From: Oscillospiraceae bacterium
GTDB lineage: Bacteria; Bacillota; Clostridia; Oscillospirales; Ruminococcaceae
NCBI GenBank assembly: GCA_017394475.1
Contig: JAFPYQ010000011.1
Location: 1 to 12,327, forward strand
Direction of reading: 5' to 3'
DNA length: 12,327 nt
The notes under the pieces were generated by a model. That model saw only the letters and a program-made list of their open reading frames with translations, searched no databases and was not told the DNA's origin. This document shows, in pieces, positions 1 through 12,327 of this stretch. Position 1 is the first letter of the stretch. Every line of letters begins with the position of its first letter. Both the position numbers and the translations under genes were made by a program.

Positions 1-70
1 CCATGCTGTGCTTGTGATAGGGGCGTATATTATGCTCTGTGAGCACCTCGTTGTAAAATGTATCACTCAT
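1..70 (-). CDS. sufU: SufU/NifU-like Fe-S cluster scaffold, N-terminal fragment
   Basis: Only the first 23 codons are inside the window; the gene runs off the left edge. The visible protein starts MSDTFYNEVLTEHNIRP and continues YHKHSM. A Tyr-x-x-x-Leu-x-x-His-(N)-x-x-Pro opening is how SufU/NifU-type scaffold proteins begin, and the gene directly follows sufS, the usual Firmicutes order, in which SufU takes persulfide sulfur from SufS. The start ATG (70-68) overlaps the end of sufS by 8 nt, and an AAGGAGA ribosome site lies at 81-87 with 10-nt spacing, inside the sufS coding end, so the two are translationally coupled. The zinc/cluster cysteines lie outside the window, so the family call rests on the N-terminus and the context. 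Confidence 0.75.
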   Translation of the reverse strand, partial: MSDTFYNEVLTEHNIRPYHKHSM

Positions 71-1277
71 CGTAGCCCATTCTCCTTCTAATAGTTTTCA
101 GGCAGTCTATAAAGCGGATGATATCATCCTCGTTATTATAGAATGCTATGCTTGCCCTTGTGGTGGACATGGTCTTAAGGAATTTGTGCAAAGGCTGTGC
201 ACAGTGATGACCTGCTCTGACACAAACCTTGTCATTGCTCATGATGGTGGAAACATCGTGGGGATGAACGCCTTCCACCGTAAAGGTGATTATGCCGTGA
301 TGCTCATGAGGATCCTCCGAGCCTATCACTCGGATATGCGGGATATCCGCAATGTGCTCCATAGCCAGGGCGCAGAGCTGTTCCTCTCTTTGGGAGATAT
401 AATCAAATCCTATCCTGTCGATATAATCTATGGCAGCAGCAAGGCCTACCGCGCCGCCGTCATTGACAGTGCCCGCCTCGAATTTATGGGGAACTTCCGC
501 ATAGGTGGCACCCTGCAGAGTGACATATTCTATCATCTCACCGCCGTAGAGGAAGGGGGGCATCTTTTCAAGAAGCTCATGCCTTGCCCACAGAACGCCT
601 ATTCCCATAGGGGCGAGCATTTTGTGACCTGAGAATACGAAGAAATCGACTCCTAATTCCTTTACATCCACCTTCATGTGAGGAACGGACTGTGCGCCGT
701 CACACACAAATACAGCGCCGTGGGCGTGGGCTATCTCCGCAAATCTCTTGATATCATTTTCCCGACCTATGACATTTGATACCTGTGCCATGGCAACTAT
801 CCTCGTGCGGTCGGTGATGAGGCTTTCGAGCCCCTCTGCAGTGTATCTTCCCTGTTCGTCACATTCGAGATATTTTACCGTGCAACCCTTCTGCTTTGCT
901 GCGAACTGCCAGGGCAGCATATCGCTGTGGTGCTCACTTATGGCAACGATGATCTCATCGCCGCTGTCAAGGAAGTTCAGGGCATAGGAATAAGCAATGA
1001 GATTGAGGGATTCAGATGCATTCCTTGTAAAGACTATCTCATCTGCGGCACCGCCGATAAAGCGGGCTGCCTTCTCTCTTGCATTCTCATAAAGCTCTGT
1101 TGCGCGCACGCTCAGATCATAGAGCCCCCTCAGCGGGTTTGCGTTGGATGTCCTGTAATAATCCTCCACTGCCTTCATCACCGACTGTGGTTTCTGGGAA
1201 GTGGCACTGCTGTCGAGATATACAAAATCTGCATTATATATCAGCGGGAAATCCCTGCGTATCATATCATGATCCAT
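63..1277 (-). CDS. sufS: Cysteine desulfurase SufS
   Basis: PLP-dependent enzyme that removes sulfur from L-cysteine, giving alanine and an enzyme persulfide for Fe-S cluster assembly in the cytosol. The 404-residue length is normal for a group II (SufS/CsdA) desulfurase. Visible motifs: LDSSATSQKP near residue 21 (the family has LDxAATSQKP), EHHSDMLPWQ at 115-124 with the His that stacks on PLP, CDGAQ with PLP-binding Asp193, SGHKM with Schiff-base Lys219, and RAGHHCAQP with catalytic Cys359. The short spacing around the Cys, with no long loop, is typical of SufS rather than IscS. Start ATG at 1277-1275 is preceded by AAAGG (1286-1290) at 8 nt. It is first in its transcription unit and overlaps the SufU-like gene by 8 nt; sufB/C/D are not seen in the window. 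Confidence 0.96.
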   Translation of the reverse strand: MDHDMIRRDFPLIYNADFVYLDSSATSQKPQSVMKAVEDYYRTSNANPLRGLYDLSVRATELYENAREKAARFIGGAADEIVFTRNASESLNLIAYSYALNFLDSGDEIIVAISEHHSDMLPWQFAAKQKGCTVKYLECDEQGRYTAEGLESLITDRTRIVAMAQVSNVIGRENDIKRFAEIAHAHGAVFVCDGAQSVPHMKVDVKELGVDFFVFSGHKMLAPMGIGVLWARHELLEKMPPFLYGGEMIEYVTLQGATYAEVPHKFEAGTVNDGGAVGLAAAIDYIDRIGFDYISQREEQLCALAMEHIADIPHIRVIGSEDPHEHHGIITFTVEGVHPHDVSTIMSNDKVCVRAGHHCAQPLHKFLKTMSTTRASIAFYNNEDDIIRFIDCLKTIRRRMGYDE

Positions 1278-1339
1278 AATATCAACCTTTCTGTCGGTCT
1301 TATGCCGATGTGATACGGCTATTCAAATAGACCTCTGAT

Positions 1340-1368
1340 ATTATAACATAAAATTTGTAAAAAGTAAA
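1340..1368 (-). promoter_or_regulatory. Sigma-A-type promoter for sufS-sufU
   Basis: Read on the minus strand: -35 TTTACT (1368-1363), 17-nt spacer, -10 TATAAT (1345-1340), a perfect -10 box. The start of transcription should fall near 1333, leaving a leader of about 55 nt before the sufS ATG. No clear operator palindrome of an IscR/SufR kind was recognised in the leader. Confidence 0.75.
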
Positions 1369-1483
1369 GCATAAACAGCATATATATTCAAAAAATGAAC
1401 AAACCCGCCCCCATCATCGCAAAAATCTGCTATTTTGTCAATATAAGGCTATATATGGCTGTTTTATTCGGTAATGTTGATGA

Positions 1484-1512
1484 TTGATTTTTCTTACGAA
1501 ATGTGTTATAAT
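1484..1512 (+). promoter_or_regulatory. Sigma-A-type promoter for the lipoprotein-HAD-ATP-grasp operon
   Basis: -35 TTGATT (1484-1489), 17-nt spacer, -10 TATAAT (1507-1512), preceded by TGTGT. Transcription should begin near 1519, giving a leader of about 79 nt to the ATG at 1598. Confidence 0.75.
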
Positions 1513-1520
1513 CGACAGGA

Positions 1521-1566
1521 CTGCAGCAGAATGAACTGCAGCCATTCACAGCAGGCGAAGGCTTGC
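1521..1566 (+). other. Structured leader with two small hairpins
   Basis: Two stems can be drawn in the leader RNA: CTGCAG (1521-1526) with CTGCAG (1536-1541) around a 9-nt loop, and GCAGGC (1551-1556) with GCTTGC (1561-1566) around GAAG, the latter with one G-T pair. An alternative stem GAATG/CATTC competes with the first. No U-tract follows, so this is not a terminator, and I recognise no known riboswitch class. The role, if any, is unknown. Confidence 0.3.
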
Positions 1567-1597
1567 TCATGATCCATACATCCAAGGAGAACAGAAG

Positions 1598-2659
1598 ATG
1601 AAAAAACAACTTACTATACTTATGGCAGCAGCGATACTGCTTTGCTCCTGCGGCACTAAGAATACACAGGCTCCTGCGGACACCACCGCACAGACCGATG
1701 CAGCAGTCACCGAGGCTGCAGCAGAGGCTACCACAGCTTCGGAAACTCAGACAGAGGCCACCACTACACAATCCGAAACTACCACAGAGGCCACCACCAC
1801 GACACAGGCCGCTACGGAAGAGACCAAAAAGGAAGAAAAGGCTGAGCCCGACGGAGTCATGCCAGACAGGAACTTCAACCTCATGGACGGCATCACTATG
1901 GGCATGACAGCTTCAGAGCTCAAAGAAATACTGGGTGAACCCGACAAGGAAGAGACCTTCGGCGGCTTTGCCACACTTACATACGGTGAGAATTCATTCT
2001 CCTTCGGTGATTTCAGTGACTTTTTCGGCGACCTTATGGACAGCTTTTCCGATATAGACATAGATGTGGATGCCGATGACAAGGATGATGACGACAAAGA
2101 CGACGCTGACGATAAAGACGATACAGATGACAAGTCCGATGATGAAAAGGATGACGATGACAAGGATCCCAAAGACGACAAGGATACCGATGATAAGGAT
2201 GTAAAGACCGATGACGATGCCGAAACCAAAAGCACGGATGGCACCGAAGAGCAGAAAAAAGAGCCCGGTCTTATGATGATAGCCATCGCCGATGACAAAT
2301 TCGATGACAGGCTCTTTGGCGGCGTTAAGATAGGCAGCACCGCAGAAGAGGTAAAAAAGGCATATTATGTTGACGAAAATATGGATGTCCCCGAGGATAT
2401 CCTCAAAGAGGTGGAGGAATCCGAAAATACAGAGGTGCTCTACGGTATCGATGACCTTATAAAATTCGAGAGCTCCGATGAAGAAGTTCTCCCCGTGCTC
2501 AAATTCGGCATCGACAGTACCGATGATGACGGCAAACGCATGATATCCTATACCGAATTTGAGATATCGGAGGGTTCTGCCTTTATGTTCATACTGGAAT
2601 ATACCATAGATGACAGCGGAAAGGTAAGCGAGATCGGCTGCATGGTAATGAGCTACTGA
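1598..2659 (+). CDS. Acidic lipoprotein with Asp/Lys-rich insert
   Basis: Predicted surface lipoprotein of 353 residues. The signal peptide has Lys2-Lys3, a hydrophobic core and the lipobox LCSC, with Cys18 as the lipidated residue. Residues about 20-85 are a Thr/Ala/Glu linker that would span the cell wall. Two similar short motifs follow: GITMGMTASELKEIL (98-112, then GEPD) and GVKIGSTAEEVKKAY (242-256), like the Gly-x-Thr-x-x-E-Val/Leu helix start of SmpA/OmlA-type and related small lipoprotein domains. Between them, residues 152-207 are an almost pure Asp/Lys tract with DDDDK words, possibly binding cations. The C-terminus (280-353) looks like beta strands ending in MVMSY. AAGGAG at 1584-1589 sets the start. 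It leads an operon with a HAD phosphatase 1 nt downstream. Function unknown; the resemblance to SmpA is weak and by eye. Confidence 0.85.
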   Translation: MKKQLTILMAAAILLCSCGTKNTQAPADTTAQTDAAVTEAAAEATTASETQTEATTTQSETTTEATTTTQAATEETKKEEKAEPDGVMPDRNFNLMDGITMGMTASELKEILGEPDKEETFGGFATLTYGENSFSFGDFSDFFGDLMDSFSDIDIDVDADDKDDDDKDDADDKDDTDDKSDDEKDDDDKDPKDDKDTDDKDVKTDDDAETKSTDGTEEQKKEPGLMMIAIADDKFDDRLFGGVKIGSTAEEVKKAYYVDENMDVPEDILKEVEESENTEVLYGIDDLIKFESSDEEVLPVLKFGIDSTDDDGKRMISYTEFEISEGSAFMFILEYTIDDSGKVSEIGCMVMSY

Positions 2660-2660
2660 T

Positions 2661-3443
2661 ATGGACAGATACATATTCTTTTCCGATCTTGACAGAACAC
2701 TTATCTTTTCCTATAACCGCCTTACCCCCGAGGATGAACGTATATGCGTTGAAAAAAAGGGGGAAAAGGAACTATCCTTCATGACCCCGCAATCTGCGGA
2801 CACTTTCGCCGAGATAGACAGTCTGTGCAGATTTATCCCTGTTACATCCCGTTCCGAGGAACAGTATAAGCGGATATTCCTGCCCTTCGGCATAAAGCCC
2901 CATCTTGCCATAATAGACAATGGGGCAAATCTGCTGATAGACGGGGATCTCGATCCCGGATGGAACCGCACATTCAGCGAAGCCTTTCGCAAAGCTGCCG
3001 ATGAGATACGGGTATGCAAGGAATATCTGCAAAAATGTGAAAACACATATTTTGAGATACGCATAGTGGATGATTCCTTTCTGTTCACAAAATGCAAGGA
3101 CAGCGATGCAGTGGCAGAGGATATGAGAAAGACCTTAGGGCTCACAAACAGCGGAGTATTCACCAACGGGGACAAGCTCTACGTTATTCCCGACGGCATC
3201 ACTAAGGAAGCTGCCCAGAAAGAGCTGCGCAAACGCTTTCCCGATCATATCGTAATAGCTGCAGGGGACAGTCCCTTTGATGAAAATATGCTCCGTGATG
3301 CAGATATATCCGTCATAAACAAGGGTGAGCTCACCGGGATGCAGCTTTGCCCGAAACAGCTCACATTCTCCGAAAATGATGATGACACCGTCTTTGTCAC
3401 CCAAACAGTAAAAAAGATACTCACAGGGGAGATAGATATATGA
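2661..3443 (+). CDS. HAD-superfamily phosphatase, Cof/sucrose-phosphatase-like (IIB)
   Basis: Cytosolic Mg-dependent phosphohydrolase of 260 residues. All four HAD motifs are visible: motif I DLDRT with nucleophile Asp9 and acid/base Asp11; motif II VTSRS with Thr62; motif III probably Lys182 in the ITKEAAQ segment; motif IV GDSPFDENM with Asp203 and Asp207. The cap between motifs II and III fits the C2B cap of the Cof/SPP/MPGP group. The substrate cannot be read from the sequence. The gene begins 1 nt after the lipoprotein stop without a good ribosome site, so translation is probably coupled, and it overlaps the ATP-grasp gene by 4 nt (ATGA). That tight pairing with an ATP-grasp enzyme recalls the biosynthetic genes of Ter operons, where a HAD and an ATP-grasp protein act on the same nucleoside-like product; here that is inference. 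Confidence 0.9.
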   Translation: MDRYIFFSDLDRTLIFSYNRLTPEDERICVEKKGEKELSFMTPQSADTFAEIDSLCRFIPVTSRSEEQYKRIFLPFGIKPHLAIIDNGANLLIDGDLDPGWNRTFSEAFRKAADEIRVCKEYLQKCENTYFEIRIVDDSFLFTKCKDSDAVAEDMRKTLGLTNSGVFTNGDKLYVIPDGITKEAAQKELRKRFPDHIVIAAGDSPFDENMLRDADISVINKGELTGMQLCPKQLTFSENDDDTVFVTQTVKKILTGEIDI

Positions 3444-4432
3444 ACATCTGGTTCAATCACTGGTTCAGCACAGCATACACTATAATCGAGCTCATGCGGG
3501 AAGGTCATGAGGATGCACATTTTATATGCACCTCAAAGAACCCCGACAGCATACTCCAGAAGGTCTGCGAGGAATTCTACCCCGAGCCTGCGGATATAAC
3601 CGATGAGGAATATATCGTATTCGCCCTGGATTTCTGTCGTGAGCACAAGGTAGATGTATTCGTCCCCAGGCGTGCTATGGCCATGGTATCGAAGGAAGCA
3701 GAGAGATTTAAGGATTTGGGCGTAAAGCTGCTGCTGGATACCGACTATCATATCTTTTCGCTTCTTGCAGACAAGGTTGCTGCCTACAAGTTTTTTGCAG
3801 AGTTTGTCCCCGAGGCAGTTCCTGTTCACTACACGGCATATACAAGAGAGGAATTTGTCCGCGCCTATGAGAAGATCACCGCGGATCATGCCCGTGCCTG
3901 TGTGAAATTTTCCGCAGATGAAGGCGCTGCCAGCTTTCGCGTAATAGATAATACGGTCAATTCCTTCTACCGCACTCCGGGGCTCAAAGTCCCCTTTGAT
4001 ACTGCCTGTGATATGGTGGATGCCCTTGAAGGAAAGAGGCAGTTCCTTGTGATGCCCTATCTTGAAGGAACGGAGATAAGTGTGGACTGCCTGTCTGCAA
4101 AGCCCGAAAGCATCATGATACCCCGCCACAAATCCGGCAGGACCTACACCATAGAATATGATCCCGTGATAATGGAGCTTGCAGGAAAGATACTGGACAG
4201 AACAGGGCTTTCCATGCCCTGCAACATACAGTTCAAATGCCACGACAACAAGCCCTATATCCTTGAGATAAACACAAGGATGTCCGGCGGAACGGGATAT
4301 TCCTGTGCAGGTGCAGGGGTGAACATCCCTTCATTGGCACTTGACAAGGTCCTTGGTAAAGAGATACATCCCATACTGAATTTTGATAAGCACAGAGTCA
4401 GCTATATTGAAACGCCGCTCATACTGAGCTGA
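3440..4432 (+). CDS. ATP-grasp ligase, resembling the Ter-operon biosynthetic type
   Basis: ATP-dependent carboxylate-amine (or thiol) ligase of 330 residues. Residues 1-100 form a PreATP-grasp Rossmann-like part; DKVAAYKFF (111-119) is the usual entry to the ATP-grasp fold; ACVKF with Lys156 and MPYLEGTEISVD (205-216) carry nucleotide-binding residues; NIQFKCHDNKPYILEINTR (262-280) gives the Glu276-x-Asn278 metal ligands and Arg280, followed by the glycine loop MSGGTGYS. The opening NIWFNHWFSTAYTII is like the family I remember as ATPgrasp_Ter (ATP-grasp of Ter-linked biosynthesis), though CarB-like ligases of other pathways share these motifs. AGGGGAG at 3425-3431 and the ATGA overlap with the HAD gene fix the start. 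It is last in the operon and followed at once by a terminator. Substrate unknown. Confidence 0.85.
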   Translation: MNIWFNHWFSTAYTIIELMREGHEDAHFICTSKNPDSILQKVCEEFYPEPADITDEEYIVFALDFCREHKVDVFVPRRAMAMVSKEAERFKDLGVKLLLDTDYHIFSLLADKVAAYKFFAEFVPEAVPVHYTAYTREEFVRAYEKITADHARACVKFSADEGAASFRVIDNTVNSFYRTPGLKVPFDTACDMVDALEGKRQFLVMPYLEGTEISVDCLSAKPESIMIPRHKSGRTYTIEYDPVIMELAGKILDRTGLSMPCNIQFKCHDNKPYILEINTRMSGGTGYSCAGAGVNIPSLALDKVLGKEIHPILNFDKHRVSYIETPLILS

Positions 4433-4438
4433 GTTTAT

Positions 4439-4485
4439 GCCATAGTATTTCCGATATACAGTCGGGAGTACTATGGCGTTTTTTT
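4439..4485 (+). terminator. Rho-independent terminator of the lipoprotein-HAD-ATP-grasp operon
   Basis: GCCATAGTA (4439-4447) pairs perfectly with TACTATGGC (4469-4477); TTT/GAG continues through two G-T pairs and CCGA/TCGG adds four more base pairs, giving a 16-bp stem around a 7-nt loop, followed by G and seven T (4479-4485). It begins 6 nt after the ATP-grasp stop. Confidence 0.93.
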
Positions 4486-4577
4486 GACAGGACTTCATAA
4501 ATGCCGCTTATTCGGTGGATGTAATGCTTTTTAAGTTAAATGTATATAGTGATAGTTCAGAATTTTTTCATAAACAC

Positions 4578-4606
4578 TTGAAAAATTTGAAAATATGGTG
4601 TATAAT
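4578..4606 (+). promoter_or_regulatory. Sigma-A-type promoter for the 4664-10097 operon
   Basis: -35 TTGAAA (4578-4583), 17-nt spacer, -10 TATAAT (4601-4606); the strongest match in the window. Transcription should begin near 4613, inside an inverted repeat described separately. The ribosome site AAGGA (4651-4655) lies 8 nt before the ATG at 4664. Confidence 0.82.
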
Positions 4607-4628
4607 AATTAAGAATGGGTAATTATTA
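4603..4628. promoter_or_regulatory. Perfect inverted repeat over the -10 box, candidate operator
   Basis: TAATAATTA (4603-4611) and TAATTATTA (4620-4628) are exact reverse complements separated by 8 nt. The left arm shares bases with the -10 box and the right arm lies in the first transcribed bases, the classic position for a repressor site. The arms are wholly A/T, so chance in an AT-rich leader is more likely than for a mixed palindrome. No regulator gene is seen nearby. Confidence 0.45.
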
Positions 4629-4663
4629 CTACTTAGAATGAATGATAGGTAAGGAAAAAGATA

Positions 4664-5962
4664 ATGGCAGAGATATATGATCCCGTACCCGTGAAGGTAA
4701 AGGGCTTTGAATTTGAAGAGAGAATACTGAAAGCCGCTGCAAAGGCTGAGGAGGCAGCACTCCCGAAATTTGCAGAGATAGACCGTGTTGCCCGTGCAAA
4801 CGGTGAAAGAGTGCTGCGCGCATTCATAAACAACAAGGTCTCCGCAGCCTGTCTTACAGGCACAACGGGCTATGGCTACGGTGATGTGGGCAGAGATACC
4901 CTTGATGCGGTATTTGCAGAGATATTCGGTGCAAAGGATGCTCTTGTGCGTGCTTCCATCGCTTCCGGCACAGCGGCGCTCACCACAGCGCTTTTCGGTG
5001 TGCTGCGCACAGGGGATAAGATAGTTACCCTCACAGGCAGGCCCTATGACACTCTTGAAGAGGTAATAGGTCTCAGGGACAGCGACGGTTCACTGGCAGA
5101 TTTTGGCATAAGCTATGACCAGGTGGAGCTCACGTCACAGGGAAAGCCCAATGTTGCGGAGATATTCCAAAAGGTAAAGGGCGCCAAGGTTGCGTATATA
5201 CAGCGCTCGAGAGGATATTCCCTCCGCCCGTCACTTTCGGTGGATACTCTGGCTGAGATAATAAAAGCAGCAAAGGGCGCACAGCCCGATGTGATAGTAA
5301 TGGTAGACAACTGCTACGGAGAGTTTGTCGAAAAGCTGGAACCCACTCATGTGGGAGCGGATCTTGCTGTAGGCTCGCTGATAAAGAACGCAGGCGGTGG
5401 CATCGCTCATTCCGGCGGATATATCGTTGGCAGGGAAGACCTGGTGGAAAAGTGCTCTCACAGGCTCACAGCACCGGGTGTCGGCCGTGAGGCGGGCGCC
5501 ACTATGGATGAGAACAGGGCGCTGTATCAGGGTCTGTTCTTTGCTCCCGAGGTCACTGCGAATGCCATGAAGACAGCAGTCTTCACCACCGAACTTTTCA
5601 ACATCCTGGGCTATGAGGTATATCCTTCGCCCGATGATGTAAGAGGGGATATCATAACCTCCATCGTGCTGGGTTCCCCCGGAGCACTCACTGCATTCTG
5701 CCGCGGCATACAGAAGGGCTCGCCCATAGACAGTTTTGTATCTCCCGAACCATGGGATATGCCGGGTTACGACGATCAGGTCATCATGGCAGCGGGCACC
5801 TTCAACAACGGTGCATCCATTGAGCTTTCTGCAGATGGTCCTCTGCGTGAGCCCTATGCAGCGTATGTGCAGGGCGGCCTCACCTATACCACAGGTAAAC
5901 TGGGTATTCTCTGCGGACTGCAGGAGATGTTTGAAAAGGGAGAACTTAAACTGTTCTTCTGA
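4664..5962 (+). CDS. PLP-dependent methionine gamma-lyase family protein ('aluminium resistance' family, YnbB-like)
   Basis: Cytosolic fold-type I PLP enzyme of 432 residues, the normal size for this family. Visible: GYGYGDVGRDTLD (69-81), a family hallmark near the N-terminus; ASGTAA (100-105) binding the PLP phosphate; VDNCYGEF (214-221) with Asp215 for the pyridine nitrogen; SLIKNAGGG (238-246) with the Schiff-base Lys241; and GGLTYTTGKLG near the C-terminus. The family is often named aluminium resistance protein or methionine gamma-lyase, but the true substrate in Clostridia is not settled; a C-S lyase acting on a sulfur amino acid is the general expectation. It is the first gene of a seven-gene run, with its own promoter and ribosome site. 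The next gene, rpe, starts 47 nt downstream. Confidence 0.93.
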   Translation: MAEIYDPVPVKVKGFEFEERILKAAAKAEEAALPKFAEIDRVARANGERVLRAFINNKVSAACLTGTTGYGYGDVGRDTLDAVFAEIFGAKDALVRASIASGTAALTTALFGVLRTGDKIVTLTGRPYDTLEEVIGLRDSDGSLADFGISYDQVELTSQGKPNVAEIFQKVKGAKVAYIQRSRGYSLRPSLSVDTLAEIIKAAKGAQPDVIVMVDNCYGEFVEKLEPTHVGADLAVGSLIKNAGGGIAHSGGYIVGREDLVEKCSHRLTAPGVGREAGATMDENRALYQGLFFAPEVTANAMKTAVFTTELFNILGYEVYPSPDDVRGDIITSIVLGSPGALTAFCRGIQKGSPIDSFVSPEPWDMPGYDDQVIMAAGTFNNGASIELSADGPLREPYAAYVQGGLTYTTGKLGILCGLQEMFEKGELKLFF

Positions 5963-5963
5963 T

Positions 5964-5981
5964 GCGGATGGTCACCATCGC
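5964..5981 (+). other. Short hairpin between the PLP-enzyme gene and rpe
   Basis: GCGGATGG (5964-5971) pairs with CCATCGC (5975-5981) with one bulged G and a 3-nt loop. No T-run follows, so it is not an intrinsic terminator; it may be a pause, processing or stability element, or nothing. It starts 2 nt after the stop codon of the upstream gene. Confidence 0.3.
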
Positions 5982-6009
5982 ACAATGAAAACGAAAAGGG
6001 CTGGTACAA

Positions 6010-6669
6010 ATGAACAGGATGAAGATCAGTGCGTCAATACTCAGTGCAGATCTTTGCGCTCTGGGTGCGGAGATGAAAAGGGCTGAAAAGGCGGGCTGTG
6101 ACCATATACATTTTGATGTGATGGATGGCGTATTCGTGCCGAATATAAGCTACGGCATACCCGTGCTCGAATCGGTGCGCAAGTCTACGGATATGTTCGT
6201 GGATGCCCATCTGATGATAACAGACCCCGTACGCCTTGTGGAAAACTTTGCAAAGGCAGGGGCTGACAATATCACATTCCACGCTGAAGCTGCCGCTGAC
6301 CCGAAAGCGGTCATAGAAAAGATCAAGGGCTGCGGCAAGAAATGCGGTATATCCATAAAGCCGGGAACACCTGTTTCTGCCATAAAGGAGTACATACCTA
6401 TGGTGGATATGGTGCTCGTTATGACGGTAGAGCCTGGTTTCGGCGGTCAGGGCTTCATATATGAGACCCTTGACAAGATAAAGGAAGTACGCACCATCGC
6501 CGATGAACTGGGACTTGACACCGATATCCAGGTGGACGGCGGCATAAACGACAAGACCGTAAAGCTCGTGTATGAGGCAGGGGCTAATGTCATGGTAGCG
6601 GGTTCATACCTTTTCCATTCTGCTGATATGGCGGCAGATGTGCTCAAAATGCGGGAATGTGAGAAGTAA
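6010..6669 (+). CDS. rpe: Ribulose-phosphate 3-epimerase
   Basis: TIM-barrel metal enzyme interconverting D-ribulose 5-phosphate and D-xylulose 5-phosphate in the pentose phosphate pathway. At 219 residues it has the family length. Signature segments: ISASILSAD (6-14), HIHFDVMDGVFVPNIS (32-47) with metal/catalytic His34 and Asp36, DAHLMI with His67, MTVEPGFGGQ (138-147), the flexible loop over the active site, IQVDGGI with Asp176, and AGSYLF for phosphate binding. ATG at 6010 has AAAAGGG (5994-6000) at 9 nt; the Met at residue 4 is a possible alternative but the upstream start has the better spacing. It sits third-party between a PLP enzyme and an ExbB/ExbD-like gene set, 21 nt before the latter. 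Confidence 0.96.
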   Translation: MNRMKISASILSADLCALGAEMKRAEKAGCDHIHFDVMDGVFVPNISYGIPVLESVRKSTDMFVDAHLMITDPVRLVENFAKAGADNITFHAEAAADPKAVIEKIKGCGKKCGISIKPGTPVSAIKEYIPMVDMVLVMTVEPGFGGQGFIYETLDKIKEVRTIADELGLDTDIQVDGGINDKTVKLVYEAGANVMVAGSYLFHSADMAADVLKMRECEK

Positions 6670-6690
6670 GCGCCCGATCGGATACTGATC

Positions 6691-7212
6691 ATGCTGATAT
6701 TTTTTGAAAAACTCTTCATTAGCCTGTTCACCACTACGGACGTATTTATTCTGCTGTGGGCGGGTGCAACGGGATTTATGTACTACAAGACTCTCATTTC
6801 ACTTAAAAAGATCAGTGATGAGTTGTATATACCTGCTCTGCGCCGCGCTAACAGAAGAAAGGTGCGGCAGTATACCGAGAACAAAGCGGATACAAAGGAG
6901 CAGGAAGACCGCATCCATACGCAGATCGGCAAACTAAACGAATGGTATTCCCTTTTTTCGACATTCGTTTCCGTTTTCCCGCTGCTGGGGATGCTGGGTA
7001 CTGTAAAATCCCTCATTGAAGTGGCAGGGAAGATATCTTCTGAAACTCCCGTCATGGATGAGTTCTTCGGTGCTCTTACCTCTACCGCGTGGGGCATAAT
7101 CTTCGCTATGATATTCAAGGCGGGCTTTGATTCCCGTGTTTCTCCGAAAGTTGCCGCTGCAAACAAGGAGTATGATCTCCTTATTGAGCGCAACAGTCTT
7201 GAAAAGCTATGA
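6691..7212 (+). CDS. MotA/TolQ/ExbB-type proton channel protein, compact
   Basis: Predicted integral membrane protein of 173 residues with three membrane segments (about 12-32, 87-111 and 125-146) and a charged cytoplasmic loop (about 35-85), the ExbB/TolQ arrangement. The pore region matches the family: FPLLGMLGTVKSLIEV (96-111) is the ExbB/TolQ LLGLLGTVxGMI motif, and FFGALTSTAWGIIFAMI (125-141) matches the ALxxTAxGLxxAI motif with the conserved Thr129/Thr131 beside it. Such proteins form pentameric, proton-driven stators around an ExbD/MotB dimer. The stop overlaps the start of the next gene (ATGA), which encodes the expected transmembrane-Asp partner. The ribosome site is weak (GGA, 8 nt), so translation may depend on rpe. 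It is shorter than MotA and lacks MotA's large loop; nothing suggests flagella here. Function of the machine unknown. Confidence 0.85.
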   Translation: MLIFFEKLFISLFTTTDVFILLWAGATGFMYYKTLISLKKISDELYIPALRRANRRKVRQYTENKADTKEQEDRIHTQIGKLNEWYSLFSTFVSVFPLLGMLGTVKSLIEVAGKISSETPVMDEFFGALTSTAWGIIFAMIFKAGFDSRVSPKVAAANKEYDLLIERNSLEKL

Positions 7213-7826
7213 ACAAACCACAGGAGATAATTCTTGATTTTACATCACTGCTCGATGTGATCATGATAATCCTTTTCTGGTTCATCATTAATTATCGTGC
7301 AGAATCCATAAAGATCAGGGATGAGGCAAATCAACAGCTTGAACAGGCTCAGAGCATATCCGCACAGGCAGAAGAGGATATGGCAGGATTAGAGCGCGAC
7401 CGTGCAGCCTTTGAGGAAGAAAAGCAGCGCTGGACGGAGGAAGCTCAGCTTGAAGTCAAGCGCATCTCTGCCACTTCCGAACGCGCTGCAAAAAGCCTTG
7501 AAGCAATGCTTGAATTTTCCATGAGCAGGAATATAAAAATATACCTTATCACCGGCAGCGATACATGGTTTATTGATATATATTCCGACAACAAGCTGAT
7601 AGGCACCGTCAGAAAGGGTGCTGAGATACGGGCAGGACTGGCGCAGGCTCTGGAAAATGCAGGGTATTCCACCGAGGATACTATACTCTGCGAATTTGTC
7701 TTTGATAGTCATGCCGCAGGTTCATACAGTGCCAACACCGATGTTACCGAGGCTCTTGATCTTATAAGCCGCGAATATCCTTTTTTATACTATTCAAGGA
7801 CAGATGTATATCTTATAAATAACTGA
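7209..7826 (+). CDS. ExbD/MotB-like protein: TM-Asp helix, coiled coil, alpha/beta outer domain
   Basis: 205 residues. An N-terminal stretch DFTSLLDVIMIILFWFII (10-27) is one membrane helix with Asp16 near its start, the position of the proton-carrying Asp of ExbD, TolR and MotB (LIDVxxxLLIFF pattern). Residues about 31-100 are rich in Glu/Gln/Ala/Arg with heptad-like spacing and should form a coiled coil. Residues 109-205 read by eye as strand-strand-helix-strand-helix-strand (FIDIYS; LIGTV; AEIRAGLAQALEN; LCEFVFD; DVTEALDLI; DVYLI), the order found in ExbD/TolR outer domains, but with no clear sequence identity; no OmpA-type peptidoglycan-binding motif was found. The 4-nt overlap with the ExbB-like gene implies a stoichiometric partner. 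A poly-proline membrane protein follows 32 nt later. Confidence 0.75.
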   Translation: MNKPQEIILDFTSLLDVIMIILFWFIINYRAESIKIRDEANQQLEQAQSISAQAEEDMAGLERDRAAFEEEKQRWTEEAQLEVKRISATSERAAKSLEAMLEFSMSRNIKIYLITGSDTWFIDIYSDNKLIGTVRKGAEIRAGLAQALENAGYSTEDTILCEFVFDSHAAGSYSANTDVTEALDLISREYPFLYYSRTDVYLINN

Positions 7827-7858
7827 CAAAACTGATATACAGGGAAAGGGGAATTAAT

Positions 7859-8374
7859 ATGCCAAATGACAGAGATGACCGCCGAAGCTCATCCGAAAGG
7901 GATGAGAGAAGAAGACCAGCACCGCCTCCGCCCCCTCCACCTCCACCGAAAAAGAAGAAAAAAAGCGGAGGACTTGCAGCAATTATAATAATTCTGCTGC
8001 TCATCATCATAATATTGCTGCTGTTCATGCATTTCGGCGGATCTGGCCTGCTGCCGGGCATCGGTAATGGGACAGGGACTGATACAGGCAGCAACAATAC
8101 TGCTCAGACAGGTACAGCCGAAACTACTGCACCTACTGAGGTCTCTGAAACAACTGCTGTTGAGGTAAAGGTCACAGCTGTTGAGGTGACGGTCAAGGAA
8201 AATTCCTATGTTCTGAACGGTAATACCATGGAGCTTGATGCACTTATTGCAGAACTTGAAAAGAACGAAAACGGCGTGAATGTGACTATCATTGACGATA
8301 ACGCTTCACTTGATGCATATAACAATCTCACAGCTGCACTTGATGAAAAGAACATACCGTACAGCAAGCAGTGA
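7859..8374 (+). CDS. Poly-proline single-pass membrane protein with ExbD/TolR-like C-terminal domain
   Basis: 171 residues in clear blocks. Residues 1-19 are charged and Arg/Asp-rich; 22-30 are nine consecutive prolines; 31-35 are five lysines; 39-57 is a single membrane helix made almost only of Ile/Leu; 60-105 is a Gly then Thr/Glu linker; 106-168 resembles the ExbD/TolR periplasmic domain: VEVTVKENSYVLNG, then a helix NTMELDALIAELEKN, strand VNVTIIDDNAS, helix LDAYNNLTAALDEKNIPY (E. coli ExbD has the same order with an ADKTVDYETL-type segment). By the positive-inside rule the proline tail is cytoplasmic and the domain is outside. The membrane helix has no Asp, so it cannot be the proton carrier. 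The nine Pro codons are mixed. AAAGGGG (7845-7851) gives a strong start. Probably works with the two genes upstream; no name known to me. Confidence 0.7.
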   Translation: MPNDRDDRRSSSERDERRRPAPPPPPPPPPKKKKKSGGLAAIIIILLLIIIILLLFMHFGGSGLLPGIGNGTGTDTGSNNTAQTGTAETTAPTEVSETTAVEVKVTAVEVTVKENSYVLNGNTMELDALIAELEKNENGVNVTIIDDNASLDAYNNLTAALDEKNIPYSKQ

Positions 8375-8398
8375 TAAGACCCCTGACGGAGGTAAGAA

Positions 8399-9313
8399 AT
8401 GATCTATACATTGACAATCAATCCCGCTATCGACTACCACATGGCGCTCATTGAACTCACAAGAGGGACTGTGAACCGTTCCGCAGCAGAGGAGATATAT
8501 CTGGGCGGAAAGGGCATAAATGTTTCCACCGTGCTCTCAACTCTGGGAACGGAAAATGTGGCTATGGGCTTTGTTGCAGGATTCACAGGTGAGGAGCTTG
8601 AGAACGGGCTCAAAGCAAAGGGCATAAAGACCGATTTTGTCCGCCTTGACAAGGGCATGACAAGGATATGTGTCAAGCTCACCGATGAGGATGGGACAGA
8701 GACCGAGCTCAATGCTGCAGGTCCCGAGATCTCAGACAGCGATATAGTTTCACTTTTTGACAAGCTGGACAAGCTCACAGAAAACGATACCCTTGTTCTT
8801 GCAGGAAGTGTTCCCAAGTCCGTGGACAGCGATATCTATGAAAAGATATGCTCCAGACTATTTGAGAAAGTAAAGATAGCCGTTGACGCTTCCGGAGAGC
8901 TCCTTACAAAGGTGCTTCACTTCCACCCGTGGCTGGTAAAGCCCAATAACTATGAGGCCGAGGAGATATGCGGCAAAAAGATAGATTCCCACAAGTCCGC
9001 AGAAGACTGCGCAGTTCAGCTTCGTGCCATGGGCGCTATGAACGTTATCATCTCTATGGGTGAAAAGGGCGCTGTACTTGCAGCACAGGACGGCAATGTA
9101 TACCGTATAACCGCACCGAGATTAAAGGTGGTAAACAGCGTTGGTTCCGGAGATTCTCTCCTTGCAGGGTTCCTTTCCGGCTATGAGCTCACCTCGGACT
9201 ACAGAGAGGCACTTCGCTACGGCATCGCAGCAGGCAGCGCAACAGCATTCTCCAAGGGACTGTGCAACAGGGGACTTTTTGAAGATCTGCTTTCTATGGT
9301 GCAGTATGGCTGA
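8399..9313 (+). CDS. pfkB: 1-phosphofructokinase family kinase (PfkB superfamily)
   Basis: ATP-dependent sugar-phosphate kinase of 304 residues, most like 1-phosphofructokinase (fructose 1-phosphate to fructose 1,6-bisphosphate) or tagatose-6-phosphate kinase. It begins ITYTL-like (MIYTLTINPAID), has the first PfkB signature LGGKGINVS (35-43), the substrate-loop segment with TRICVKLTDEDGTETELN (88-105), the LAGSVP segment (134-139), KPNNYEAEEI (181-190), and the second signature VNSVGSGDSLLAGF (245-258) with catalytic base Asp252 and an anion hole formed by GSGD. GGAGGT at 8388-8393 precedes the ATG. No fructose PTS or FruR gene is near, so FruK versus LacC activity is open. Its last 8 nt overlap the start of the DUF218 gene. 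Confidence 0.9.
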   Translation: MIYTLTINPAIDYHMALIELTRGTVNRSAAEEIYLGGKGINVSTVLSTLGTENVAMGFVAGFTGEELENGLKAKGIKTDFVRLDKGMTRICVKLTDEDGTETELNAAGPEISDSDIVSLFDKLDKLTENDTLVLAGSVPKSVDSDIYEKICSRLFEKVKIAVDASGELLTKVLHFHPWLVKPNNYEAEEICGKKIDSHKSAEDCAVQLRAMGAMNVIISMGEKGAVLAAQDGNVYRITAPRLKVVNSVGSGDSLLAGFLSGYELTSDYREALRYGIAAGSATAFSKGLCNRGLFEDLLSMVQYG

Positions 9314-10097
9314 TAAACTGAGAAATTCCGCCGGTATGACATTAACTATCCTTATCGGCACATTTTTCCTGCTGTCCTTACTTGTATTCGTTGCGGCTGC
9401 TGTCACAACGAAGGTAAATCTCGGCAATGTGACAGGCGGTGTTATCAGCCTTATACTTCTGCTGTGTACCATGTTCCATAAGCCTGTGGGTGAGTTCATA
9501 AAAAACGGACTTGCAGATCACGAAAGGAAAAAGCTGGTTATCATCCCGTTTATAGTGATATGTATCGCAGTTATAACAGCTGCAGCCATATCGGTAATGA
9601 TGATCGCGCAGGCATCAAAGGCACCGCAGGAAAGCATGACAGTGATAATACTGGGATGTCGTGTAAAGCCCGAAGGGCCGTCTCAGATGCTTAGAACGCG
9701 GACCCTTGCTGCAGCAAGATTTATGGAACAGCACCCCGACTGCGTATGTATCGCATCGGGAGGGCGTGGCGGCGATGAGCCCATGTCCGAAAGCGAGGCG
9801 ATAAGAGATATACTTATTGAATATGGTATATCACCCGATCGTATAATAATGGAAGACAAGTCCACCAGCACCAGAGAGAATTTTTCATTCTCAAAGGAAC
9901 TCATAAAGGAGCGGGGCTTACCCGAAAAGATAGCCATTGCAACAAGTGAGTATCATCAGCTCCGTGCTTCCATGATAGCCGCCGATAACGGATTCGGGGA
10001 ATGTTATTCCCTTCCTTCGGCGCATACACAGCTGTTTTTGCTCCCATCCTACTGGATAAGAGAATGGTACGGGGTAATCTACGAAGTTGTGTTCTGA
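9306..10097 (+). CDS. Membrane-anchored DUF218/YdcF (SanA/ElyC-like) protein
   Basis: 263 residues from the ATG at 9306, which overlaps the kinase stop by 8 nt; the reading frame is open further upstream, but that would lie inside the kinase gene and yields a non-typical, charged N-terminus. Three membrane segments (about 11-33, 39-58, 77-101) precede a DUF218 domain (111-260). Family landmarks: VIILGCRV (113-120), a run of alternately spaced small residues SGGRGGDEPMSESEA (151-165), EDKSTSTREN (183-192), and ATSEYHQLRA (212-221) with His217 and Arg220. SanA/ElyC proteins of this family affect envelope and peptidoglycan precursor steps; the chemical activity is not established. It is the last gene of the unit; no terminator hairpin follows clearly. 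Confidence 0.88.
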   Translation: MADKLRNSAGMTLTILIGTFFLLSLLVFVAAAVTTKVNLGNVTGGVISLILLLCTMFHKPVGEFIKNGLADHERKKLVIIPFIVICIAVITAAAISVMMIAQASKAPQESMTVIILGCRVKPEGPSQMLRTRTLAAARFMEQHPDCVCIASGGRGGDEPMSESEAIRDILIEYGISPDRIIMEDKSTSTRENFSFSKELIKERGLPEKIAIATSEYHQLRASMIAADNGFGECYSLPSAHTQLFLLPSYWIREWYGVIYEVVF

Positions 10098-10233
10098 CGA
10101 TGATTGTGCAATATGTACAAATATATCATGTTCCTACCGTATATTTTTACAATATAATTAAGCAACGAAACACTATGGTTTCCTGTTTATATATATGAAA
10201 GCACAAAACATAAACCTTTAAGGAGGAATCAAA
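10098..10233 (+). promoter_or_regulatory. Leader of the Big2 surface-protein gene, weak promoter
   Basis: This 136-nt AT-rich gap has a -10 match TATAAT (10153-10158), but the -35 candidates at 16-17 nt (near 10130-10136) match poorly. A strong ribosome site AAGGAGG (10220-10226) lies 7 nt before the ATG. There is no convincing terminator for the upstream operon, so read-through into the surface gene is possible. No riboswitch was recognised. Confidence 0.4.
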
Positions 10234-12327
10234 ATGACAACGTCAAGCAAAAGATTTAAAGCAGCGGCGGCAGTCTTCATGTCGCTCATACTGACGGCCG
10301 TATTTATCATCCTTCCATGCGGTGCAGAAGTATCCGCTCTGGGGATAAGCAATTCCAGCATCACACTTATGATAGGTCAGACTAAGCAGCTCTCTGTTTC
10401 GGGAGCATCTACCTCGATAAAGTGGTCAAGCTCAAATTCGTATGTTGCATCGGTTTCCAAGTATGGTAAAGTTACCGCCAAAAATCCGGGTAGTGCCTAT
10501 GTCTATGCAAGAGTGGGCAAAAAGCAGGTCAAATGCAGAGTAAAAGTAGTTGAAGGCTCTATACACGCATCTTTCAGCAGCGTTTCACTCAAAAAGGGTC
10601 AGAAGACAACTGTAACCATCACAGCAAGAGGCTCACATGCGGTAAAAGTTACAAGTTCCAATCCCAGTGTGGCATCTGCAGGATGGGTAAGCTCCTCATT
10701 CGTAAACGATCAGAATCAGCTGAGGATCACAGGCCGGAAAGCAGGTTCAGCTACAATCAAGGTGTATATGACCAAGCACAGCCACGTCTACACCACTATC
10801 TATGTAACAGTATCAGGCTCATCAAGCAGCTCAAGCAGCACTCCTTCTATCAGCACTAATGTATCTTCACTTGATGTAAACGTAGGCAGTTCCAACTCTT
10901 TCGTAGTTTCAAGCTCTCAGGGCAACAACATCAAGGTGACTAACTCCAATGGCAAGGTAGCAAGAGTTTCTGTGGGCAGCTGGTATAACAACCGTGCAAC
11001 TGTAACAGTAACAGGCCTTAAGAGAGGTACTACTACTATCACCTTCAAATCCAGGACCAATTCAAAGGTATTAAAGAAGGTTACCGTATATGTAAACGGC
11101 GGTTCTTCCAGCCATACTACAACTCTTTCAGCATCTCCCACATCAGTTTCACTTACTCCCAACAGTCAGAGAAGTGTTACTATCACATCTTCCAATCCCT
11201 ACAATCTTACATATTCACTTTCAAATTCCAACATTGCTTCCTATTCAGTAAGCAATTCCAACAACAAGGCTTATGTTACGATCACAGGACGTCAGGCCGG
11301 AACAACTTACCTCACAGTAAACGATTATGCAAACAACAAGAGCGTAAGGATCACTATCAGCGTTTCGGGCTCCACTCTCTCTGTTTCACCTACAAGCCTT
11401 AGTCTCCAGATGGGCGGCAGCAGCTCAATTTCCGTTAATACATCCAACGGCTATGGTGTAACTGTATCAGGCTATTCTTCCAGCGTTATCAATGCCTATG
11501 TAAGCAACCAGAGCTCCAACAGAGCAACTGTATATGTTACAGCAGTAGGTTCGGGCAGCACCAACCTTACTATCTCGGATGGCACAGGTGCTTCCAGAAC
11601 TGTATCTGTAAGAGTAAACGGCTCAAGTCTCTCTGTTTCTCCCACAAGCCTCAGCATGAATGTAAATGACAGCCGGAGCATCACAGTCACCACATCCAAC
11701 GGCTACAATGTTTACACTTCCGGTTATTCGTCTTCAGTAGTAAGCTGCCAGGTATCGAGCCAGAGTTCCAACAGAGCTATAGTATATTTATACGCACAGG
11801 GCGCAGGTTCTACCAACATCACTATCAGCGATGGATACGGCAACACCAGGACAGTTCCCGTAACTGTAAGAGGCGGCAATATCACTGTATCTCCTTCCAG
11901 CTTTACTATGAACAGCAATGATTCCAGAACAGTGACAGTTTCAGGCGCTTCCGGATACCTCTATGCTTCAAGCTCCAACCCCAGCGTAGCGACAGCATAT
12001 TCTTCCGGCAGCAACTCGGTAACAGTATACGCATCTTCTTCAGGCAGCGCTACTATCACAGTTACCGATTCCAGCTCAAGCAAGTCTGCATACATTTATG
12101 TAACCGTAAAGAGCAGTGCAACTCCAATAAGAGTATCACCTTCTACTGTTTACATGGATCCCGCTGATGTGGAGTATGTAGATGTTACAGCATCTGATTA
12201 CTCAAGAATAACCGTTTCTTCCTCTAATTCAAATGTTGCAATAGCTTCATTCTCCGGTGGTGCTCTCTATATCACAAGCGGCGAGGCCGGAAACTGCACC
12301 ATTACACTTTACGACAGTGCATCAGGA
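10234..12327 (+). CDS. Secreted protein with tandem Big2-like Ig repeats, C-terminus cut by window edge
   Basis: 698 codons are visible and the frame is still open at the last base. A signal peptide (1-35: basic start, hydrophobic core 10-28) ends at VSA before Leu36, a type I site; the Cys at 29 is not in a lipobox. The rest is Ser/Thr/Val-rich Ig-like repeats of about 84 residues: 36-108, 109-194, 206-290, 297-379, 380-463, 464-548, 549-627 and a partial one from 630. Each opens with a strand like LSVSPTSLSL, and several have the Big2 wording SSNPSVA and G-x-A-G-x-(T)-x-(T/I)-I-T. Residues 195-205 are a serine linker. Such repeats act as stalks or binding modules of cell-surface proteins; a catalytic, sorting or dockerin domain would be beyond the edge. 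Start chosen from AAGGAGG at 10220-10226. Confidence 0.9.
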   Translation, partial: MTTSSKRFKAAAAVFMSLILTAVFIILPCGAEVSALGISNSSITLMIGQTKQLSVSGASTSIKWSSSNSYVASVSKYGKVTAKNPGSAYVYARVGKKQVKCRVKVVEGSIHASFSSVSLKKGQKTTVTITARGSHAVKVTSSNPSVASAGWVSSSFVNDQNQLRITGRKAGSATIKVYMTKHSHVYTTIYVTVSGSSSSSSSTPSISTNVSSLDVNVGSSNSFVVSSSQGNNIKVTNSNGKVARVSVGSWYNNRATVTVTGLKRGTTTITFKSRTNSKVLKKVTVYVNGGSSSHTTTLSASPTSVSLTPNSQRSVTITSSNPYNLTYSLSNSNIASYSVSNSNNKAYVTITGRQAGTTYLTVNDYANNKSVRITISVSGSTLSVSPTSLSLQMGGSSSISVNTSNGYGVTVSGYSSSVINAYVSNQSSNRATVYVTAVGSGSTNLTISDGTGASRTVSVRVNGSSLSVSPTSLSMNVNDSRSITVTTSNGYNVYTSGYSSSVVSCQVSSQSSNRAIVYLYAQGAGSTNITISDGYGNTRTVPVTVRGGNITVSPSSFTMNSNDSRTVTVSGASGYLYASSSNPSVATAYSSGSNSVTVYASSSGSATITVTDSSSSKSAYIYVTVKSSATPIRVSPSTVYMDPADVEYVDVTASDYSRITVSSSNSNVAIASFSGGALYITSGEAGNCTITLYDSASG
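11371..11877 (+). repeat. Closely related pair of Ig repeats (repeat 5 and 6)
   Basis: Two neighbouring units, 11371-11622 and 11623-11877, share long words at protein level (SLSVSPTSLS, TSNGY, SGYSSSV, SQSSNRA or NQSSNRA, GSTN-TISDG) and at DNA level, where CTCTGTTTC recurs exactly 252 nt apart (11379 and 11631). They are more alike than any other pair, so they probably arose by a recent duplication of one 84-codon unit. Confidence 0.75.

Follow-up and report, generated by a model that had tools for sequence, protein, structure and literature searches.

The Ton and Tol systems use proton flow to pull and are viewed as machinery of two-membraned bacteria; the genes of the former lie in the order exbB-exbD-tonB. 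Here we describe a cassette of three genes, A, B and C, with a similar order, carried by gut bacteria of the Ruminococcus type and located on a 12,327-nucleotide stretch of DNA from an Oscillospiraceae bacterium (GenBank assembly GCA_017394475.1, contig JAFPYQ010000011.1, positions 1 to 12,327 of the forward strand; the whole stretch is hereafter called the window). The kinship of the trio with the proton motors is well supported, and its hosts seem to be without an outer membrane. Parts of a 2022 review regard ExbBD as a Gram-negative property and report that ExbB-family proteins have been annotated for Staphylococcus aureus and Clostridium sporogenes, with their working there left to test; the cassette bears on this question of the way in which ExbB-type proteins might function in Gram-positives (PMC9389320). 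In a further paper, the channel family has been split into flagellar and generic ion transporters with varied appendages (PMC12505986).

A preliminary description, made from the DNA letters, had taken the three genes for an energised machine and knew of no named system with this composition. The first interpretation is partly supported, and neither of the two outcomes named in it as refuting came about: A was not assigned to an unrelated transporter family, and the trio is conserved in relatives. For the trio itself, no paper was found in open-licence PubMed Central and no description occurs in the sections covered of PMC9389320, PMC12505986 and PMC12905483; the system is not entirely unanticipated, the 2022 review having noted annotated ExbB-family proteins in two Gram-positives. 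The features of the cassette are as follows.

6691-7212, + strand: gene A, MotA/TolQ/ExbB-type channel (wheel) subunit, 173 amino acids, short cytoplasmic loop, PF01618
7209-7826, + strand: gene B, ExbD/TolR-type axle, 205 amino acids, one transmembrane helix with Asp16
7859-8374, + strand: gene C, 171 amino acids, one membrane pass and an outer domain predicted to have the ExbD fold
7209-7212, + strand: ATGA shared by the stop codon of A and the start codon of B, a 4-nucleotide overlap of the two frames, as first noted

Judged by its sequences, the trio is a member of the channel family whose set of parts differs from those of the described motors. It resembles ExbB-ExbD-TonB in the channel family, the pore threonines (in A), the axle aspartate (in B) and the ExbD periplasmic fold (predicted in C), and differs from it in that neither a TonB receptor nor Omp85 was detected in the genus, C combines the layout of TonB with an ExbD-type end domain and has no SxxxH motif, A is without the proline P190 and has Lys143, and B is modelled with a long stalk. 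The differences from TolQ-TolR-TolA are the lack of an outer-membrane marker that would go with a Pal-type target and a C end domain that matches ExbD/TolR. The force transducers with von Willebrand A domains encoded beside tolQR-like genes, as presented in part of PMC12204202, share with C a TonB-like layout, an exchanged end domain and the position adjoining a motor, but their end domain is the von Willebrand A domain.

Channel, axle and third protein

Protein A of the window matches the Pfam model MotA_ExbB (PF01618) with 46.7 bits (E 3.2e-12), passing the curated cut-off of 22.9, and the same model is matched at E ≤ 0.001 by 34/34 A relatives. The solved structures found with a profile of these 34 relatives are MotA, PomA, ExbB and TolQ. 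The third helix of window A lies under the hydropathy threshold; it is visible in several homologues and aligns with that of ExbB. Residues P97, T104 and T132 align with P141, T148 and T181 of Escherichia coli ExbB and are each invariant among the aligned proteins of two sets (34/34 and 47/47), and a portion of a paper on the Ton motor describes these ExbB residues as conserved near the essential aspartate (PMC12215075). Lys143 is present in 34/34 and 46/47 proteins of the same sets, and the shortest A proteins start from 140 amino acids. The second-helix proline of ExbB, P190, has a counterpart in 0/34 and 0/47 A proteins, this residue being a trait of the Ton and Tol systems that is not known to be family-wide.

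Window proteins B and C match the ExbD model PF02472 in complementary halves, B by its membrane helix and C by its outer domain. The match of B, confined to its N-terminal part, falls under the curated cut-off of 25.4 (E 0.092, 13.3 bits); 26/33 B relatives match at E ≤ 0.1, with a best value of 6.6e-6, and some exceed the cut-off (e.g., P0142 with 32 bits). Asp16 was found in 95/95 aligned proteins and, together with the channel-family match of A, bears out the ExbB/ExbD-type core of the preliminary description. A TSLLD-type motif occupies the single predicted membrane helix of B in 112/112 cases, and the helix motif occurs in 30/32 sequences of an ExbD comparison set (30 loci plus E. coli ExbD and TolR). 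Compared with ExbD, the profile of the B membrane helix reached a probability of 93%, with 0/100 column shuffles as good.

The AlphaFold2 model of B (mean pLDDT 87.9) consists of one helix at residues 11-89 and a subsequent beta3-alpha-beta-alpha-beta outer domain. The profile of this outer domain reached a probability of 2% against ExbD, a result equalled by 2/100 shuffles, and a fold search with the domain was crowded by rows that we take to be ribosomal and RNase H-like folds. Set against the outer-domain profile of C, the B profile scored 21.8 (probability 16%) with a shuffle maximum of 13.3 and 0/100 shuffles as high, a result that hints at a common origin of the two outer domains.

Protein C begins with a positively charged cytoplasmic N-terminus, followed by a transmembrane helix (residues 38-59), a flexible linker of low model confidence and an outer domain at approximately residues 105-171. 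The match of window C to PF02472 is weak (E 0.17) and lies in the C-terminal part, and 5/38 C relatives match at E ≤ 0.1 (best 0.003). The outer domain was modelled by AlphaFold2 with ten-residue pLDDT means of 81-97 and, in an unprompted comparison with the PDB, its best matches were the periplasmic domains of ExbD; the C profile reached a probability of 90% against ExbD, with 0/100 shuffles as good. The ExbD/TolR periplasmic fold is predicted for this domain, in agreement with the ExbD-like outer domain first ascribed to the third protein.

The membrane aspartate of the axle is missing from C, with Asp or Glu in 4/115 C helices, as is the SxxxH motif by which TonB and TolA bind their motors (0/115 C membrane helices). 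A lipobox-like start was detected in four C-type proteins, three of them second copies and the fourth (locus L101) doubtful; L204 holds another second copy with a start of this sort. Given such starts and the missing helix Asp/Glu and SxxxH, C seems to require a membrane tether rather than a pore helix. The loci with second C copies and lipoprotein-like starts are L018, L019, L077 and L204.

Inheritance, distribution and hosts

The arrangement of the genes was followed in 43 stretches, comprising the window and stretches picked for holding an A or B match, and in the 80 top-ranking named loci among at least 396 relatives from an alignment-based search. A-B-C occurred in fixed order on one strand in 35 of the 43 stretches, eight of which have a second C-type gene, and in 76 of the 80 named loci, 74 of them directly and two (L168 and L175) once an overlong B frame was allowed. 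Flanking genes differ between loci, with 195 neighbours forming 111 clusters. Because order and strand are kept while the flanks differ, the conservation of the trio is not due to chance, and the genes stay together in relatives as expected of a system. The spacing between A and B is most often -4 nucleotides (51/112 loci). Over 102 loci (reduced from 108 by the removal of near-identical A proteins), the distances measured for the three proteins are correlated with one another (coefficients 0.80, 0.60 and 0.71), far above permutation, which shows co-inheritance and not contact. On this evidence, A-B-C is a co-inherited cassette. The named and stretch sets overlap in L109, L110, L117, L142, L143, L144 and L175, and also through L202 with L175, and the spacing, neighbour and helix-motif counts include overlapping locus pairs.

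Departures from the pattern are of several kinds. One genome (G013) holds A (L014) and B-C (L104) approximately 16 kb apart and no contiguous A-B-C; in L014 (6803-8382) the gene overlapping A by 4 nucleotides presumably encodes an SGNH-type esterase. The cassette is incomplete at contig ends in L020, L023 and L106, L084 shows no B between A and the two C-type genes that come after it, and L103 and L105 have an A-like gene without B or C alongside. Amongst the named loci, L128 and L185 have A-B only, L109 has A only, and L123, in which C comes after two intervening frames, was scored as a miss. None of the 78 pattern matches from a scan of named genomes with a single A protein was confirmed.

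Relatives of A were sought with a single protein and then with profiles run against 20 genomes from the genus and 297 from the family, in which the short A-type protein is clearly separate from the longer, flagellar-type MotA. Matches of at least 78 bits were found in 30/297 family genomes belonging to 14/126 genera, and the remaining family matches to the A profile scored 20-52 bits and lay for the most part in frames of 231-328 amino acids. The complete A-B-C was present in 13 of the 14 A-positive genera, the exception being g60 (L084). In wider draws, B matches occurred in 11/295 genomes of an order draw and 5/391 of a class draw, each count including the window's own genome; seven of these matches, at ≤23 bits, were left aside and five B-matching genomes (L202-L206) were inspected. 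Of these, L202 and L203 (same class as the window), L204 (same order) and L205 (same family) proved to have A-B-C, and L206 had a weak B match only. The cassette is also present in records of the cultured species Ruoffia tabacinasalis (Lactobacillales), Ruminococcus bicirculans 80/3 and R. flavefaciens XPD3002, which makes it testable. By these searches, the cassette has its base in the window's family and occurs patchily elsewhere.

Two outer-membrane markers were searched in the 20 genus genomes; completeness is ≥90% and contamination ≤5% in 8 of these (the window genome is 72% complete). Omp85 and the TonB-receptor plug (PF07715) were each found in 0/20 genomes, with both searches positive in E. 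coli and other controls (7/14 and 3/14, respectively). Going by these markers, the cassette hosts seem to lack an outer membrane, as had been supposed of this Gram-positive lineage. The Pfam ExbD model had no match in the window's own genome and matched in 88/348 genomes of the phylum.

Proposed working and rival explanations

We consider it fairly likely that A, B and C work together as a single membrane machine that belongs with MotAB, ExbBD and TolQR (the 5:2 kind) and is adapted to an envelope with one membrane. Its stoichiometry (pentamer and dimer), proton flow, rotation and wall target, and the position and docking of C, are what we infer as follows. A would assemble as a pentameric channel with two B helices occupying its pore, and protons would pass via Asp16 of B and a ring formed by the pore threonines of A, both sets of residues being observed, turning A against B. 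The B helix is modelled to run approximately 55 residues (about 8 nm) past the membrane and would raise the outer domain toward the peptidoglycan. C, which has the gene position of TonB and TolA and their layout (N-terminus inside, one helix, linker, C-terminal domain) but ends in a domain of predicted ExbD type, would sit beside the motor and transmit force to the wall by binding the B outer domain, peptidoglycan or a wall-linked partner. ExbD domains reportedly bind the D-box of TonB, going by the titles of PDB entries; on that account it is reasonable to guess at strand-pairing by C. The motor probably acts on the cell wall, and by analogy with TolQR-TolA-Pal at the outer membrane the force might serve wall growth or division. 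A bolder proposal is offered tentatively, as possible rather than probable: the trio may represent a class of single-membrane motors, in which a minimal ExbB/ExbD-type proton motor pulls the wall via a transducer that is built from an ExbD-type domain, shares position and layout with TonB or TolA and is sometimes duplicated, the additional copy starting like a lipoprotein. If true, force of the Ton and Tol type would also be exerted on the wall itself.

Of the alternatives, the one that survives best, though unlikely, is a device that lets protons leak under control or senses the energy of the membrane, with A and B conducting protons and the C domain serving as a plug of the channel or as a reporter of the state of the wall. 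The shortness of A, which leaves little cytoplasmic part for torque, fits such a device, as does the search for an output partner in the cassette flanks (195 neighbour genes in 111 clusters), which linked none. However, the related systems of known function perform mechanical work, according to part of the 2022 review (PMC9389320), and the long, stalk-like helix modelled for B would be superfluous in a simple valve.

A gliding-type motor would place two ExbD-like proteins on one channel protein, and the trio does resemble AglRQS of Myxococcus in having a single ExbB-like protein and two partners with ExbD/TolR-like features. This identity is very improbable, as AglQ and AglS are both described with a membrane aspartate in the section of PMC9389320 concerned, whereas C, the second partner here, has none.

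It is scarcely credible that the trio belongs to a diderm not recognised as such and is its Ton or Tol-Pal system. Both gene order and topology recall exbB-exbD-tonB and tolQ-tolR-tolA, but neither Omp85 nor the TonB-receptor plug was detected in the genus with searches that were positive in controls (TolB and Pal were not searched), and the end domain of C matches ExbD. An anti-phage device related to Zorya is equally hard to credit. Weak matches of window B to the ZorA2 and ZorB1 models (E 0.006) and of R. bicirculans B to ZorA1 (E 0.002) point toward it; against these, three A proteins and one C protein that were scanned had no Zor match at E ≤ 0.1, the cassette is flanked in the window by genes for a ribulose-phosphate 3-epimerase and a PfkB-type sugar kinase (Pfam scan), and flanks vary between loci.

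Least credible is that the trio is MotAB, the flagellar stator, or has decayed from it, since, despite the shared channel superfamily (the PDB relatives of A include MotA), the axle aspartate and the use of MotA-MotB in Gram-positives, an OmpA-type peptidoglycan-binding domain is absent from A, B and C (Pfam, E ≤ 1), as the preliminary description had it, A with 173 amino acids is far shorter than the separate MotA-like protein of several genomes (mostly frames of 231-328 amino acids), and G013, which is 100% complete, has the cassette as A and B-C with no second MotA-like match. By the tests run, the trio is not a Ton, flagellar or AglRQS system, and a Tol-Pal or Zorya identity, each partly tested, is unlikely.

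Genes around the cassette

Elsewhere in the window, the protein encoded at positions 1598-2659 looks exported and has a long stretch rich in Asp and Lys; it matches no Pfam model above the cut-off. The frame at 10234-12327, open to the window end, has Ig-like Big_2 and pilus-type N-terminal repeats and is a surface protein interrupted by the contig end.

The largest cluster of neighbouring genes, with 23 members, lies downstream of the cassette (e.g., L117 and L127) and encodes a patatin-like phospholipase with DUF6363 (two members scanned). Named loci account for 19 of the 23, either Ruminococcus (14) or uncultured Clostridia/Clostridiales (5), and for this reason the neighbour is taken as a trait of one lineage. 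Four loci (L021, L022, L078 and L082) have two C-type genes and, downstream, a fourth exported-looking gene. This gene matches the tRNA_anti-like model (PF12869) in three of the four loci, in two of them above the cut-off, and is a candidate partner in a subfamily of the cassette.
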